Source: Roseobacter sp. (GTDB lineage Bacteria > Pseudomonadota > Alphaproteobacteria > Rhodobacterales > Rhodobacteraceae). From it: a stretch of DNA of 64,000 nt. The position numbers and the translations under genes are program-made. Shown here piece after piece: positions 754 through 8,458 of the stretch (position 1 is its first letter; each line of letters starts with the position of its first letter). The notes under the pieces are model-generated. The model saw nothing but the letters and a program-made list of their open reading frames with translations, was not told the origin of the DNA and did not search any database. Location: NCBI GenBank assembly GCA_024636495.1, contig JAGXGZ010000043.1, positions 1 to 64,000 of the forward strand. Direction: 5' to 3'.

Positions 754-1200
754 CTAGGGCTTTTCGGTGTCGATCCAAAGTGTGACGGGGCCGTCGTTGG
801 TGAGAGCAACGGCCATGTCTGCGCCGAACCGGCCGGTTTGAACCGGGATACCCAGATTTTTCATACAAGCGATAAAGTGCTCGTAGAGCGCGTTTGCCTG
901 ATCCGGTTTTGCGGCATAGGAAAATCCGGGGCGTGTGCCGCGCGAGGTATCTGCGGCCAAGGTGAATTGGCTGACGATAAGGGCATGACCGCCGGTTTGG
1001 GCCAGGTTCAGGTTCATCTTGCCGCCGTCGTCTTTGAAGAGCCGTAGTTTCGCGATTTTCGCGGCAAGGGCTTGGGCGGTCGCTTGGGAATCGTCCGGCA
1101 TTGCGCAAACGAAGATCAGCAAGCCCGCATCAATCTGGCCAATCACTGCACCCTCGACGGTGACAGAGGCGTTCGAGACCCGTTGAAGCAAAGCGCGCAT
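754..1200 (-). CDS. dtd: D-aminoacyl-tRNA deacylase
   Basis: [17 protein letters not shown]...[21 protein letters not shown]; Dtd motifs SQFTL and NDGPVT. Confidence 0.95.
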
Positions 1201-1201
1201 G

Positions 1202-1876
1202 TCAGGATTTCCAGTCTATGATGTCAGAGGGGGCCGCGCGTTCAGTGCGAAACTGATTGATCGGGGCGCGGGCATCGGCATAGCCAAACGAGATCGCACA
1301 AAGGATCAACCGGTCGTCTGCGATATCCAATTGCGCGCGCACGACGGGCGCATAGGCGGCGATTGCAGCTTGGGCGATTGTCGCCACCCCAAGGGCAGTT
1401 GCGGCCAACGTAAAGGCCGTGACGAACCCCCCGCAATCCATTGCGCCGTAAGGGCCCAGCTCGGCCGGTGCCGAGATGATCGCAACATGTGGCGCATCAA
1501 ACAGGGCGTAGTTGCGCAGCATTTGTGCGGTGCGGCCTGCACGGTCTGATTTGTCTATGCTCACGGCATCATAAAGCTGAAATCCGCAGGTGCGGCGACG
1601 GTCATTATAGACCCCCGAATAGCTTTTGGGCCAATCCATATCAGGCTTCGGGGGCGCCCCGCCACTGGCGGCCTGCATCATGGCGGTGCGAAACCTTTCG
1701 GTTGCTTCACCCTTGGTGATGCTGACCTGCCAAGGCTGCGCATTGCACCAGCTTGGCACATGACGCGCGGTCGAGATGATCCGGGTGATCACATCGTCCG
1801 GCACTGGATCAGGCAGAAACGCGCGGCACGAATACCGCGCTTTTAGGATATCGGTCAAACTGTCGATCTGGGTCAT
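1202..1876 (-). CDS. Nitroreductase family protein
   Basis: [41 protein letters not shown] overlap with the upstream CDS. Confidence 0.9.
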
Positions 1877-3003
1877 TTTTGCAGCGCCATAAAATAGCCG
1901 ACCACCCCGGCAGCCAACAGGCCAAGGATGACAGCAAAGGTGATTTTGATTGCTGAGTAGGGGCGTTCGCCCTGCACATTGCCGGTGCGCCCGTTGACCA
2001 CAAAGCGGTAGGTCTTGCCGCGGTACTTATAGGCGGCCAGCCAGACCGGCAGCAGGACGTGTTTGAATGTCACGTCACTGATCTGGGTCTGAACATTATG
2101 GATCCGCTGCCTGTCCCCGCCGATATCAAAACGCACGTCGCGTTCGATCATCGCGTCCATGATCTGGCGCGCCTCGACATAGCCTTCGTCCAAGGCGATC
2201 GAATAGGCTTCGGCGCGGAAACCGGCGAGATATTCCGGGGCATAGGGTTCAAGTGCTGAAAGATCCCAAGGCTCAAGCGCGTCGGTGAACCGTTTGGGCA
2301 GCGATTTGGACGCCAGGACCAGCACATCGTCAAAGAACCGCGCCACCCTGCCAGAGGCCGCACGCCAGCGCACCTTTGGGACCTGCTGCTGGGTCGGCTT
2401 GCCATCTCGCATAACGGTGACGGTCACATAGTAGACCGTGCCGCGTTCGCCTGTATAGCTGGACTTTGTGTCGGCGTCATAGGTCCAGTAGGGCACATAA
2501 ATGCCCTCCATACGGCGGCCTTTGCGCGCGTATTCCTGCAAGCCGTTGGGGGCGAACCAAAGGCTGCCCAGCCAATTGGTCATTGCATCTTTGGCAACGT
2601 TTTCGGTCAATGCAAAAGGCAGAACGCCGCGCGGTTTGATATGCCGGTTTACGCCAGTATCGACCACGACGGGTGTTGCGCAGAACGGGCATTCTGTGGC
2701 GTGTTTGTCGGCGTCAAATTCGATCTGTGCCGCGCAGTTCGGGCAGGTCGTGACGCGGGTATCTTCCATTTCGGTTTGCGGCAGGGCGCTGGCAATTGCG
2801 GCGCGAAAATCAAGTTCGGCAATGGGTTGGTGGGTGCGCCGCCCTGATATCCGTTCGGTATTGCCACAATGGTCGCAAACCAGCAGATATTTTTCGGGGT
2901 CAAAACGCAGGTCTGATCCGCAGGTATCGCAGGGAAAGCGGTGCTCTTCCACCGGGCCGGGTGGTGGGGGCGGTGGGTCAAAGGAAGGGCTGTCGGGCAT
3001 CAA
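1873..3003 (-). CDS. Double zinc-ribbon (TFIIB-like) protein with C-terminal TM helix; YdjG-like
   Basis: Two CxxC...CxxC ribbons (CDTCG..CDHCG, CPNCA..CPFCA) and C-terminal hydrophobic helix ITFAVILGLLAAGVVGYFMAL. Confidence 0.75.
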   Translation of the reverse strand: MMPDSPSFDPPPPPPGPVEEHRFPCDTCGSDLRFDPEKYLLVCDHCGNTERISGRRTHQPIAELDFRAAIASALPQTEMEDTRVTTCPNCAAQIEFDADKHATECPFCATPVVVDTGVNRHIKPRGVLPFALTENVAKDAMTNWLGSLWFAPNGLQEYARKGRRMEGIYVPYWTYDADTKSSYTGERGTVYYVTVTVMRDGKPTQQQVPKVRWRAASGRVARFFDDVLVLASKSLPKRFTDALEPWDLSALEPYAPEYLAGFRAEAYSIALDEGYVEARQIMDAMIERDVRFDIGGDRQRIHNVQTQISDVTFKHVLLPVWLAAYKYRGKTYRFVVNGRTGNVQGERPYSAIKITFAVILGLLAAGVVGYFMALQK

Positions 3004-3066
3004 TGCGTCCTCTGGTCGGGCTTATGGCAGACATACCCTGCCAAGCCCCGTGTCACCAGTGGCGAG

Positions 3067-3606
3067 TTATAAAAACCGGTGGAGCAGCTTGGGGGCCATG
3101 ATGCGCAGGGCGTTGTCTTTCAGGGCAAAATGGCGCCAGATGTGAAACCCTGCATGCAGTGCTGCGATCAGCGCAAGACCGTAAAACTCAATGCTGTGCA
3201 AAAGCCCTACCCAGTCATTTGCCAGCGGCATGTTCAGCGGCACTGCAATCGGGACGATCCCGCCCGCCCAAAGCTGCACGGTCGATGTGACGCCGATCAA
3301 GAGCCCCGTCAAAGCAACGCCAAAGATGCCCCATATCAATGTCTTATGCAGGATGGGATGAAGCCGGCGGGCCCATCCCGTCAGCTTGGGGCCGGGCCGG
3401 CTTAGCAGCCCTTTGCGCAGATACAGGGCGGTCCAAAGCAACGCGGTGCTCACGAATATCAGCCCCATCACTGAATGGAACCGTACAGCACCCGGCCCAA
3501 TGCGGGCAACATCAGCGGGCTGCACCAGAATGAACCACGCAAACATCGGTACCATTGACCAATGGATGATCTTGAGCGTTGTGCGACGGTTCGGCCAGCG
3601 CATCAC
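3067..3606 (-). CDS. Cytochrome b561-like membrane protein (paralog 1)
   Basis: Multiple TM helices; conserved His in IHW, RFHS, HPILH, LLHS, HAGFHIWRH. Confidence 0.75.
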   Translation of the reverse strand: MMRWPNRRTTLKIIHWSMVPMFAWFILVQPADVARIGPGAVRFHSVMGLIFVSTALLWTALYLRKGLLSRPGPKLTGWARRLHPILHKTLIWGIFGVALTGLLIGVTSTVQLWAGGIVPIAVPLNMPLANDWVGLLHSIEFYGLALIAALHAGFHIWRHFALKDNALRIMAPKLLHRFL

Positions 3607-4028
3607 AGGATCGAATGCATGAATTTCGGCAAGATCAGGCGCAACGCATTGTCATAAAGGGCCGTGTGTCGCCAAAAATGAAACACTCCATGCGCCGTGC
3701 CCGCCCCGAGTGTGACCAACAGCATGGTCCACGCGTCAAGATACGGGATCGGGCTGCCAAAAAGGCGTCCGACGATCGCGACGGCTGTCAGGGACAGCAA
3801 GATATGTAGCAAACGGTGCATCCAAGGATAGGCACGGCGGACCGCTGGTGAAAGTTTCGGGCCGGGTCGGCCCAGCAGGCCTTTGGTTAGGGTGATTGCC
3901 TCCCATACCACAACGATACCGGCAAACACCCCCAACACATAGGTGTTGGAGGTTCCGCCTTTGACCATCGCCAAAAGCAACAGCACCACAGACCAGTGCA
4001 AAACAATGACGACGCTGCGACGTGTCAT
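3603..4028 (-). CDS. Cytochrome b561-like membrane protein (paralog 2)
   Basis: Aligns to paralog 1 (LLxRPGPKL, H..FHFWRH.AL.DNALR..PK..H); start reset to MTRRSVV, within ORF 3603..4118; ATGA overlap with paralog 1. Confidence 0.7.
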   Translation of the reverse strand: MTRRSVVIVLHWSVVLLLLAMVKGGTSNTYVLGVFAGIVVVWEAITLTKGLLGRPGPKLSPAVRRAYPWMHRLLHILLSLTAVAIVGRLFGSPIPYLDAWTMLLVTLGAGTAHGVFHFWRHTALYDNALRLILPKFMHSIL

Positions 4029-4035
4029 AGCTGGA

Positions 4036-5145
4036 TTAGCTTGCGGGGGGCGGAGGCGGTGGCATGACGGTGAAAAGCTGCGCCAATTCGTCGACGTCGT
4101 TTGCCTTGATCCAGCCATCCTGACCGGGGGTCCAAACCAATGTCTCGCGGGTCAGCGCACCATCGCTTGTCATGCGTCCAAGGGCTGCTTTTGAAAACGG
4201 GCCTTTGGTCTGGCCGTTTTCAGCCAGATGCCAGACCTTGTCTGCGACCGGCGGCGGCGGTGGCGTTTGGACGGCAGTGGCGCGCGGCCCCCACGGGCCT
4301 GCCTGTGCGGCGGCGGCTTGCCCGATCTGCATGCCCAAACCAGCGCCCAATCCCGCCTGCATCGCGGCACCCGCGCCGCCATCCCGGCCAAGCGCTTCGG
4401 CGGCTTGGAACTGGGTGTATTGGTTCAGGTCGCCCACCAAACCCATCGAAGACCGCTTGTCCAAAACCGCCTCGACTGCGGGGGGCAGAGATACGTTTTC
4501 AACATACAGCTCGGGGATCGACAGGCCGTATTCGGCGATGGTCGCTGAAATCTCGGCGCTGACCAGCTTGCCCAGTTCGCGGGTGTTGGCGGCCATATCA
4601 AGGATCGGGATTTTCGACATCGCGATGCTGCGCGAAAATTCCTGCACGATGATGTTGCGGATCTGATAGCTGATCTCGTCCATGGTGAATTCGCCATCGG
4701 TGCCGACGATCTCGGTCAGGAAATGGGCAGGGTCTGACACCTTGACCGAATAGGTGCCAAAGGCGCGCAGGCGCACGGGGCCAAACTCGGGGTCACGTAC
4801 GATAATGGGGTTTTTCGTGCCCCATTTCAGATCGTTAAAGCGGGTGGTGTTGACGAAATAGATCTCTGATTTGAACGGGCTTTTAAAGCCGTGATCCCAA
4901 TGCTGCAACGATGTCATGATCGGCATGTTGTTCGTCTCAAGCATATAGAGGCCGGGGGTGAAGACATCGGCCAACTGCCCTTCGTGGACAAACACAGCTG
5001 CTTGACCCTCGCGCACGGTCAGCTTGGCACCGTATTTGATCTCGTGGCCTTCGCGCTCGAACCGCCAAACCATGGTGTCGCGGGTGTCATCAGTCCAGTG
5101 AATGACGTCGATGAATTGGCCGGATAGGAAATCGAGAATACCCAT
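4036..5145 (-). CDS. SPFH/band-7 domain protein with C-terminal GYF_2-like domain (YdjI-like)
   Basis: N-terminal SPFH-like region (DDTRDTMVWRFEREGHEIKYGAKLTVREGQAAVFVHEGQLADVFTPGLYML); C-terminal VWHLAENGQTKGPFSKAALGRMTSDGALTRETLVWTPGQDGWIKA. Confidence 0.85.
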   Translation of the reverse strand: MGILDFLSGQFIDVIHWTDDTRDTMVWRFEREGHEIKYGAKLTVREGQAAVFVHEGQLADVFTPGLYMLETNNMPIMTSLQHWDHGFKSPFKSEIYFVNTTRFNDLKWGTKNPIIVRDPEFGPVRLRAFGTYSVKVSDPAHFLTEIVGTDGEFTMDEISYQIRNIIVQEFSRSIAMSKIPILDMAANTRELGKLVSAEISATIAEYGLSIPELYVENVSLPPAVEAVLDKRSSMGLVGDLNQYTQFQAAEALGRDGGAGAAMQAGLGAGLGMQIGQAAAAQAGPWGPRATAVQTPPPPPVADKVWHLAENGQTKGPFSKAALGRMTSDGALTRETLVWTPGQDGWIKANDVDELAQLFTVMPPPPPPAS

Positions 5146-5177
5146 GGGTGTGGTCCTTTCGGGGGCAAAGCAGCGGT

Positions 5178-6134
5178 CTAAAGAGGCCCGCCAGTCAGTT
5201 CGCGGGCGATAATTCGGGTGATGGGGGCGGCTTCTTCCGCGCTCATGCCTGCATGCAAGCGGGGATCATACAGTATCTTAAGCAAGTGTTCATCGTGCCG
5301 CGTCAACAATGCGAATTCGTCGTCATCGTTAAAGATCGACGGGCGCGCGGTCGGGCTGTCATTGGCAAGCCCCATGCCTTGGGCAAGTTCTTCATGGATA
5401 CAAGACAAGCGCATCAACGAAGGGTTTTCGGCGCGGATGACGGCCACAGCGGCGGTGTAGGTGCTGGGATCGGTGCCGCCTGCGTAAGCCGCCACGATGC
5501 AATAGGTGTCACGGCGCAAGTCGCGCAAAGCGGCAAGGCTGGCGGGGGTCACACCGGGAATGCGTTTTGCGGCCTCGTCAAGCGCGGCTTCGCGGTCATC
5601 TTCGCTTGCGATGATCACCATAAAATTGGGCGCACCCCCGACTGAAATCGGATGCCCGGTTACGCCCGCAAGCCTGCCCGCATAGGCGCGCACGGCAGCG
5701 GTATCGCTTTCGCGTTCGGATGGGGGCACGCTTTCACCAAAAACGATGGCCATGCGCACGGGCTTGTCCCACCGACGCATCAGGGTCTTTTCGCCGCGAC
5801 CAGAAAAATTGGCGTTATATTCGTTATAAAAAGCAACCTGCTCAAAATTGCGCGCCAACATATCCGATGTGTATGGGGTGTCAGGCCCACCGCCATCCCG
5901 GCGCATCAGACCCTGACTGAGCTGGGCCTGTTGCACCTGGTTGAAATAACTGCGCAGCTTGGCGCTTGCCTCGGATGTGGGACGGTCCACAACCGGGGCA
6001 GGCAAAGCGACCAGATCTGCCGGGCGCGCAACAGGTTTGGCCGTAGGTTCAACCGGGGGCCTTAGTGCGCAAGCGCACAGCAACAGCGATGCTGCCACGA
6101 TCGCAAACCTGCTTTTCCGCTGAAACATAGCCAT
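5178..6134 (-). CDS. DUF2927-like lipoprotein
   Basis: Lipobox LLLCACAL; DNDDEFALLTRHDEHLLKILYDPRLHAGMSAEEA C-terminus. Confidence 0.75.
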   Translation of the reverse strand: MAMFQRKSRFAIVAASLLLCACALRPPVEPTAKPVARPADLVALPAPVVDRPTSEASAKLRSYFNQVQQAQLSQGLMRRDGGGPDTPYTSDMLARNFEQVAFYNEYNANFSGRGEKTLMRRWDKPVRMAIVFGESVPPSERESDTAAVRAYAGRLAGVTGHPISVGGAPNFMVIIASEDDREAALDEAAKRIPGVTPASLAALRDLRRDTYCIVAAYAGGTDPSTYTAAVAVIRAENPSLMRLSCIHEELAQGMGLANDSPTARPSIFNDDDEFALLTRHDEHLLKILYDPRLHAGMSAEEAAPITRIIARELTGGPL

Positions 6135-6157
6135 TCCCTTTGCCGCGCGCCTTTATC

Positions 6158-7324
6158 TTATGCGGCGGGTTTGGCCGCTGACGCAGACGCCAGCGTATCG
6201 CGCAAATTGGCTTCCATTTCTTCCAGTTCCTTTTCGGCTGCGGCCCGTTTTGCCTTGCCCTCGTCTGCAATCTGCAAGGATTCCTGAATCGTGCCGATCA
6301 GATCTGCATTGGCCTGCTTGACGGCCTCGATATCGAAAACGCCGCGCTCCATCTCTGTGCGGATGATCTTGTTGCTTTCGCGCAGGTTCTTGGCATTCGA
6401 GGTCAGCAGTTCGTTGGTCAGATCATTGGCCTCGCGCACGGCAACCGCCGCCTCGCGGGACCGCTGGATTGTCACGGCCTGTGCGAGTTGGGTTTCCCAA
6501 AGCGGCACGGTATTCACAAGGGTCGAGTTGATCTTGGTGACTAGTGATTTGTCGTTTTCCTGAACCAAGCGGATCGAGGGCAGGGATTGCATTGTCACCT
6601 GACGCGTCAGTTTCAGATCATGAACCCGGCGTTCCAGATCGTCGCGCGCGGCCCGCATGTCGCGCAGTTCTTGCGCCATGATCACCTGATCATCCTCAGG
6701 TGCGGCTTTGACGGCGGCCTCTTTGGCGGGAATGTCGGTTCCATCCAGCTCGGCCAGCTTGGCCTCGCCCGCAGCGATATAAAGCGCCAGTTCATCGTAA
6801 AACTGCAGTGTCTTTTCATACAGCATATCAAGCGATTTGATATCTTTCAGCAGAGTATGCTCGTGGGTCAGCAATTCATCTGTCACACGGTCAATCTGAC
6901 CTTGGACCTTTTCGAATTTGGCCGTGAACTTGGCGAAAGGTGCGGCACGGCCCAGCAAACGTTCCCACCAGCTGCGCTCGCGGCGCACGTCCAGCTCGGA
7001 TACAGAGAACCCGCGAATGGTCGTTACGATGTTACGCAGACTGTCACCTGCGGGGCCTACATCCTTGTTGCGCACGTCTTGCAACATGGCTTGGCTGATC
7101 TCTTGCAACTCTGCTTGGGCAGCTGACCCGAAAGAGATAATCGACTGCGTCTCGTTCATGTCGATCTCGGCCATGCGGCTTTTGATCTCGTTGCTCATCG
7201 GGCCATCGGCCTTTTCAAGTGACACAATCGCATCAGCGGGGGACGGGTCAGCCAATACCAAGGCGTTCACTTCTTCAACGAGCGCTACGGATTGGGTCGC
7301 TTTTTCGCGGACGATATCAGACAT
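6158..7324 (-). CDS. telA: Toxic anion resistance protein, TelA family
   Basis: ISFGSAAQAELQEISQAMLQDVRNKDVGPAGDSLRNIVTTIRGF and ESNKIIRTEMERGVFDIEAVKQANADLIGTIQESLQIADEGKAKRAAAE. Confidence 0.9.
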   Translation of the reverse strand: MSDIVREKATQSVALVEEVNALVLADPSPADAIVSLEKADGPMSNEIKSRMAEIDMNETQSIISFGSAAQAELQEISQAMLQDVRNKDVGPAGDSLRNIVTTIRGFSVSELDVRRERSWWERLLGRAAPFAKFTAKFEKVQGQIDRVTDELLTHEHTLLKDIKSLDMLYEKTLQFYDELALYIAAGEAKLAELDGTDIPAKEAAVKAAPEDDQVIMAQELRDMRAARDDLERRVHDLKLTRQVTMQSLPSIRLVQENDKSLVTKINSTLVNTVPLWETQLAQAVTIQRSREAAVAVREANDLTNELLTSNAKNLRESNKIIRTEMERGVFDIEAVKQANADLIGTIQESLQIADEGKAKRAAAEKELEEMEANLRDTLASASAAKPAA

Positions 7325-7355
7325 GGGTCATTCTTCCTATTTTGGTGGCGGCGGG

Positions 7356-8246
7356 TCAGTCTAGCCGAACGCCTTCTCGGGAAAGCCGCTCGCGCAGCAC
7401 TTCAATTTCAATGTTCAGATCAGTCTTGTCTTCTAATAGGGACTTTTGCGTGCGTGCCGCAAAGTTTTTATCCAGATCATCCAGCAATGCCATATAGTCA
7501 AGCCGGGCCTGAGCGTCGCGGGTATTTGAATAGATATCCGAGAACTTGATCGTCGCGTCACGCGCTCCAAGCAAATAGACCGACAGATATTTTCGCGCTC
7601 CGGTCAAATCTCGTGGGTCTTCTTCGACGGTCCGGATCAGGGTGCGGGCAGTGGTCTGGAAATCTGCCAACCGCTCTGCGGCCTGGCGGTCGCCTGCGCG
7701 CGCGATTGCCGCGCTCATCGCGGTCAGGTGTTTCTCGGCCTCTTCCACGACACGGGCCACGCGGTCTTTTTGAAAACTGTCAACGCCCTCCATCCCCTTT
7801 GAGGACAACGGATCAATGCCAAACGCGCAAACATGCAGCCCGATTGCGGCAATCCCGTAGATCACCGATGCCGCAATGCCCGGATCGTTCTTGTACGCCG
7901 CGAGTGCGACGCCAAACCCGGTCAGCGCGCTTGCAATCATCTTGCGTGGCAAAGCAGGCCGCTCGGCCACTTTACGTGCGCGGTATGCCGCTTCGGCCTT
8001 AAGCCCCTCGCGCAGCATCAACGCGGCACCGGTCAGCGACGCGGCTGCGATTAACCCGAATGCAAGGCCCTGCGCGCCATCATTCAACGACATAAATACA
8101 AGCGGAATTGCGGGGATGAACAACAGGTTCGACCGTGCGCCAGCCGGATCAACCTCGACCCGTCTGGCCACAGGTGCTTGGGTCGTTTCGCTGTTCTGGC
8201 TGAACTTGCCGCCGTAACGCTTGGCCATCAGAGCCCTCCCAGCCAA
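7356..8246 (-). CDS. XpaC-like (5-bromo-4-chloroindolyl phosphate hydrolysis family) membrane protein
   Basis: N-terminal TM pairs, helical C-terminal domain, position directly upstream of telA. Confidence 0.7.
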   Translation of the reverse strand: MAGRALMAKRYGGKFSQNSETTQAPVARRVEVDPAGARSNLLFIPAIPLVFMSLNDGAQGLAFGLIAAASLTGAALMLREGLKAEAAYRARKVAERPALPRKMIASALTGFGVALAAYKNDPGIAASVIYGIAAIGLHVCAFGIDPLSSKGMEGVDSFQKDRVARVVEEAEKHLTAMSAAIARAGDRQAAERLADFQTTARTLIRTVEEDPRDLTGARKYLSVYLLGARDATIKFSDIYSNTRDAQARLDYMALLDDLDKNFAARTQKSLLEDKTDLNIEIEVLRERLSREGVRLD

Positions 8247-8458
8247 CCGGTGGAAACGCCGAACAACAGCACAATCAGCGCGGCATAGGTGATCTTTTGA
8301 AACGGTGTGGGTACCATATGGCCCTCTTTGGTTTGTCCGTTTGCAGTTCTGAGCATGTTTTGTCCTGCATCCAAAATCCGCCCTGCAATTGCCATCAAAA
8401 CGAAAACAATCACAACAAGAGCGGCTAATAGAGCAACAAACAGAAACAAACGACCCAT
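8228..8458 (-). CDS. Small membrane protein, two predicted TM helices
   Basis: MGRLFLFVALLAALVVIVFVLMAIAG...TYAALIVLLFGVSTGWLGGL; overlaps the XpaC-like start by 19 bp. Confidence 0.7.
   Translation of the reverse strand: MGRLFLFVALLAALVVIVFVLMAIAGRILDAGQNMLRTANGQTKEGHMVPTPFQKITYAALIVLLFGVSTGWLGGL

Follow-up and report, generated by a model that had tools for sequence, protein, structure and literature searches.

A co-inherited XpaC-TelA-DUF2927-SPFH/GYF-zinc ribbon gene cluster in Rhodobacterales and its possible role in envelope protection

Among the closest described relatives of the locus analyzed here are two operons of Bacillus subtilis, xpaC-yaaN and pspA-ydjGHI, both of which belong to the sigma-W regulon (PMC3498285). 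In the latter system, membrane foci of PspA require YdjI, YdjG and YdjH, and the soluble SPFH protein requires a membrane partner (PMC8581546). The Bacillus SPFH protein is reported to carry a C-terminal zinc ribbon in a 2024 PSP census, which describes SPFH-ZnR-PspA operons (ZnR, double zinc ribbon protein) and leaves TelA, XpaC and DUF2927 unmentioned in its main text (PMC11237479). An XpaC and TelA gene pair is also linked to envelope stress in Listeria, where lmo1966-lmo1967 respond to a bacteriocin (PMC12791056). TelA and XpaC are widespread, and recent work describes their mechanism as unknown (PMC12791056). One proposal has TelA building structures beneath the membrane which block phage or xenobiotics (PMC7824862). 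Members of the TelA family further occur in the Ter/TelA systems of plasmids (klaB, approximately 27% identical) and jumbo phages, but in that setting they are partnered by Ter proteins, by XpaC together with a large membrane-anchored protein, or by unlinked genes, and no SPFH-ZnR pair was seen in those systems.

In the window (the whole stretch of DNA that was analyzed, 64,000 nt of a Roseobacter sp. contig), ingredients resembling the two separate Bacillus membrane-stress systems are joined in one cluster, which no paper in the literature searched treats as a unit. The ORF listing confirmed eight minus-strand ORFs in the order given by a sequence-only reading of the same DNA. The block that this reading had delineated is real, but several of its starts had to be moved: the XpaC gene starts at ATG 8228, with a TGATG stop/start overlap, rather than at TTG 8246, and the first b561-like gene starts near 4028, past the SPFH stop codon, rather than at 4118. 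The corrected start of the ZnR gene is ATG 3000. GTG is the start codon of the second b561 gene, and the overlap at 3603/3606 is 4 nt long. Intergenic gaps through the eight genes are -1, 31, 23, 32, 7, -4 and 66 nt. The features are as follows.

8228..8458, minus strand: small membrane protein with two predicted TM segments, variable accessory (ORF and hydropathy; in only part of the relatives)
7356..8228, minus strand: XpaC (PF10112), at least two TM segments and a helical domain (Pfam 84.5 bits; conserved in relatives)
6158..7324, minus strand: TelA (PF05816), soluble, all-helical model (Pfam 356 bits)
5178..6134, minus strand: DUF2927 lipoprotein with a metzincin-like predicted fold and replaced zinc ligands, EExxQxxGxxND (Pfam 207 bits)
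4036..5145, minus strand: SPFH protein (PF13421) lacking TM segments, with a GYF_2 domain and a proline-rich tail at the C-terminus (Pfam, hydropathy)
3603..4028, minus strand: b561-like membrane protein A, variable accessory (no Pfam match; His-rich TM pattern; patchy in relatives)
3067..3606, minus strand: cytochrome b561-like protein B (PF01292), variable accessory (Pfam 30.6 bits, cut-off 30.1; patchy in relatives)
1873..3000, minus strand: ZnR protein with a C-terminal TM tail anchor (conserved CxxC pairs; TM 356-374)
1202..1876, minus strand: nitroreductase, variable neighbor (Pfam 97 bits; adjoins ZnR in many, not all relatives)
754..1200, minus strand: D-aminoacyl-tRNA deacylase-like (DTD) gene, neighbor outside the core, which we take to be such by sequence recognition

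The nitroreductase gene overlaps the ZnR stop codon by 4 nt and the deacylase-like gene lies 1 nt beyond it, so the transcript may reach position 754 and the nitroreductase may be co-transcribed with the module. Promoter and terminator scans returned sites no more frequent than in shuffles. At the edge of the window, a plus-strand gene (8-676) presumably encodes a membrane-fusion (HlyD-like) protein, recognized from its sequence; similar sequences lie downstream in two other regions (L027 and L046).

Most of the domain calls of the sequence-only reading held. TelA, over the whole of its domain, and XpaC scored far above their curated Pfam cut-offs (30 bits for TelA and 29.8 bits for the XpaC family, Halogen_Hydrol), the combination of SPFH and GYF in one protein was confirmed (Band_7_1 334 bits, GYF_2 73 bits), and the DUF2927 call was confirmed as well. 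No Pfam family exceeded its cut-off in the ZnR protein, for which a double zinc ribbon is indicated by weak DZR and zinc-ribbon matches and by two CxxC pairs conserved across 30 relatives. The two b561 calls fared unevenly: the gene at 3067-3606 barely passes the Pfam cut-off, whereas that at 3603-4028 matches no Pfam family, its assignment being based on likeness to the neighboring b561 gene and on a His pattern judged by eye. The same reading had tentatively grouped all eight genes into one assembly, but b561-like matches turned up in just 24 of the 80 close relatives, and the gene for the small membrane protein in only part of the relatives. The core is XpaC-TelA-DUF2927-SPFH/GYF-ZnR; the small membrane protein and both b561-like proteins are variable additions.

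Conservation was assessed in 121 genomes of the order, in the neighborhoods of 80 close relatives and in 40 regions from further genera. The nearest TelA matches came from Sulfitobacter. TelA was detected in 119 of the 121 genomes of the order, and in 32 of 289 genomes sampled across the class, of which five belong to the own family. As far as contigs extend, the order XpaC-TelA-DUF2927-SPFH-ZnR was nearly always retained in the 80 close relatives, among which the small membrane protein, the b561-like genes and the nitroreductase come and go; the core was again retained in nearly all of the 40 regions from further genera. In 115 of the 117 genomes with SPFH, TelA lay no more than 4.5 kb away from it; SPFH and ZnR were that close in 102 genomes, several of the exceptions being contig breaks. 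The block therefore survived the condition under which the sequence-only reading was to be abandoned, namely that its genes are not co-conserved as a block in relatives, and it keeps its gene order in other genomic contexts. Conservation of the core is far above chance, and part of the within-family clustering reflects shared ancestry.

Presence and absence of SPFH and ZnR matched exactly, with both genes found in the same 117 genomes and missing from the same four. The probability of four such coinciding absences is approximately 1e-7 under independence of genomes, which does not hold. The four genomes belong to four genera; TelA is absent in two of them, a diverged remnant in the third, and in the fourth intact but the lowest-scoring of the intact ones. 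At the syntenic site of the genome with the remnant (G085, region L136), the 301-aa TelA remnant sits between RluB and the nitroreductase, the deacylase-like gene is also present and the rest of the module is gone. In six genomes of one genus, ZnR was relocated yet retained. The unit is real and co-inherited, and since almost all relatives hold the genes together and losing one core part usually means losing the others, its genes probably work as one envelope-protection machine. It is also modular, because XpaC-TelA and SPFH-ZnR can each be found without the other: XpaC-TelA-DUF2927 is present without SPFH and ZnR in one region (L135), XpaC-TelA lies 14 kb away from SPFH-ZnR in another (L141), and SPFH-ZnR occurs without adjoining TelA in three more (L146-L148).

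Outside the family, XpaC-TelA-SPFH-ZnR was found in four other Alphaproteobacteria families (L089, L090, L092, L093 and L095), and neither DUF2927 beside TelA nor an RluB neighbor was detected in those regions. Among 284 genomes of the class outside the family, 11 carried a strong SPFH match; 10 of these 11 also had TelA, which was adjacent in six. The association of SPFH with TelA in the 284 genomes gave Fisher values of 1e-12 by genome and 1e-8 by family, both of which ignore phylogeny. Genomes of the phylum sample from outside the Alphaproteobacteria showed no adjacency. On phylogenetic trees, the SPFH and ZnR proteins of the family each fall on one side of a well-supported branch, and the SPFH-linked TelA sequences stand apart from the remaining alphaproteobacterial TelA group; several branches are long and unsure. 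An SPFH gene with a short zinc-ribbon protein was found in L149. Two of the regions with SPFH-ZnR and no adjoining TelA (L146 12977-16924, L148 6589-10506) encode two consecutive large, related-looking proteins past SPFH-ZnR, and TelA lies elsewhere in these genomes.

The sequence-only reading had missed two properties of the core, namely that DUF2927 is metzincin-like and that SPFH carries proline-rich tails. The predicted model of the DUF2927 lipoprotein had a pLDDT of 89, and its top 50 Foldseek matches in the PDB were all matrix metalloproteinases (MMPs), with probabilities of 0.85 to 1.00 and modest E-values of approximately 1e-3 to 1e-2. Searched as a profile against PDB sequences, DUF2927 matched no metzincin, and no publication on DUF2927 was found in the literature searched. 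The position of the active-site helix in the model also resembles that of metzincins. The active motif of zinc metzincins, HExxHxxGxxH/D, is absent from operon members: aligned with two outlying members of the family (L196 and L197), the operon type reads E-E-x-x-Q-x-x-G-x-x-N-D, with all three zinc histidines replaced, and the Met-turn is replaced by SIF. The outlying members, whose membership in DUF2927 Pfam confirms (one also has an Astacin match below threshold), retain HEILH and the following His. The lipobox Cys22 and the motif residues were invariant in 47 relatives, and conservation of the residues that stand in for the zinc ligands suggests that a role, possibly a non-proteolytic one, has been kept. 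These predictions assign DUF2927 a metzincin (MMP-like) fold lacking the usual zinc site, and the operon type is most likely not a protease. The HExxH-type proteins (L196 519-1307; L197 248-1768, which also has Sel1 repeats) are possible active metalloprotease relatives. A second DUF2927 protein in the window's own genome (L180 655-2064, contig C26) is approximately 470 aa long, with a C-terminal extension and a motif of the E-E-x-x-Q type.

The SPFH protein has no TM segment by hydropathy. A GYF domain was present in all 21 SPFH members scanned, and a proline-rich C-terminal tail in all 76 close relatives, with shorter versions in other families. GYF domains prefer proline-rich peptides. The presence of such a domain and a candidate ligand in one chain suggests binding from subunit to subunit. 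Binding of GYF to a proline run in ZnR was also considered and is disfavored, and self-binding of the SPFH tail is preferred, because such a run occurs in only 12 of 72 relatives.

The sequence-only reading had noted the lack of PspA and likened the SPFH and zinc ribbon proteins to YdjI and YdjG. The likeness is well taken: PF13421 has a strong member in B. subtilis, both Bacillus operons are under sigma-W, and a PF13421 SPFH gene side by side with a gene for a double zinc ribbon membrane protein, as found here, constitutes a YdjI-type pair. A PspA-centered PSP response implies a PspA/IM30 homolog that the system encodes or needs, and the window's own genome has no PF04012 match. Compared with PspA-YdjG-YdjH-YdjI, the module has TelA and XpaC in place of PspA, DUF2927 in addition, a GYF domain instead of the C-terminal zinc ribbon on SPFH, and no TPM-domain YdjH detected by Pfam. 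Compared with xpaC-yaaN, which is separate from the SPFH-ZnR genes in Bacillus, all these genes form one cluster. We rejected TelA as a replacement of PspA across the order, as PspA coexists in 22 of 61 relatives, and also as a PspA homolog, as the two profiles aligned with an hhalign probability of 6%. The AlphaFold2 model of TelA was helical and of low confidence, its fold matches were non-specific helical proteins, and the weakness of the model makes the fold search uninformative. With no detectable homology to PspA, any equivalence of TelA would be positional only.

Co-loss and clustering tie TelA and XpaC to a putative SPFH-ZnR scaffold and lead to the hypothesis that TelA is a client of this scaffold as PspA is of YdjGHI, which could be tested in genetically tractable roseobacters. 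Given the co-conservation, clustering, co-loss, domain content and topology described above, we infer from homology and context that a scaffold-and-recruit mechanism is the best-supported reading. The soluble SPFH protein would form an oligomeric scaffold beneath the inner membrane, where the tail-anchored ZnR would keep it in place, in parallel with the dependence of YdjI on YdjG/YdjH in Bacillus. The GYF domain of SPFH would bind proline-rich tails, in the simplest case the protein's own PPPPPP tails on neighboring subunits, which would make SPFH assembly switchable. The scaffold would bring helical TelA to stressed membrane, where TelA and the membrane protein XpaC may stabilize or seal the damaged bilayer, the role of PspA beside YdjGHI. 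The DUF2927 lipoprotein may report on, or couple to, the periplasmic or outer-membrane side, and the b561-like proteins and nitroreductase may be optional redox additions. That the five core genes encode one such envelope-protection complex, with SPFH-ZnR recruiting TelA/XpaC, we consider an even bet.

Four other readings of the cluster were weighed. As RluB, and often the nitroreductase and DTD genes, also remain nearby, the core could merely consist of stable neighbors with separate housekeeping roles; yet the block persists in other families where no RluB neighbor was detected, SPFH and ZnR stay co-present even where ZnR has moved, and the four genomes that share the absences come from four genera, all of which makes conserved synteny alone very unlikely. 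An improbable reading is that of a tellurite or oxyanion resistance operon, with TelA as the effector and b561 and nitroreductase providing redox chemistry. It draws on the name of the TelA family, on the redox genes adjoining here and on a Listeria telA mutant reported second-hand to be twofold more sensitive to tellurite (via PMC12791056); according to the same second-hand report, however, this mutant is fourfold more sensitive to nisin, the redox genes lie outside the core, and near universality in the family argues against a specialized resistance.

Defense against phages or bacteriocins would fit the proposal of TelA as a sub-membrane barrier to phage and xenobiotics (PMC7824862) and the TelA genes of jumbo phages, one of them with XpaC and flotillin. 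No meaningful PADLOC family score was obtained, though (two matches only, with E-values of 0.02 and 0.085), and stable, near-universal inheritance is unlike that of typical defense genes, so that we regard a defense module as very improbable. SPFH proteins are known to scaffold proteases, as in HflKC-FtsH, and DUF2927 models as a metzincin, which would suit an HflKC-like scaffold for membrane-protein quality control with DUF2927 as an active periplasmic protease. This is quite improbable considering that all three zinc histidines are replaced in operon-type DUF2927 and that four other families have the block without DUF2927 beside TelA.

As an independent association, genes for a YqiJ-like protein, flotillin, XpaC and TelA are consecutive in the Sinorhizobium jumbo phage Phosso (L153, 2858-7038), an unusual membrane cluster for a phage. 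Most other phage TelA genes examined were without such an arrangement, and two scans of viral contigs yielded no TelA relatives. A tentative and, in our judgment, rather unlikely generalization is that XpaC-TelA is a general, PspA-independent effector of membrane maintenance recruited by differing SPFH scaffolds, of the YdjI type in Alphaproteobacteria and of the flotillin type in the jumbo phage, with a periplasmic lipoprotein sensor derived from a zinc-less metzincin added in Rhodobacteraceae. Two other regions (L091 9452-14063, L102 6068-10771) have a different TelA neighborhood, in which TelA is joined by a large protein whose N-terminus has a membrane or signal segment, by XpaC and by another protein that is secreted or anchored.
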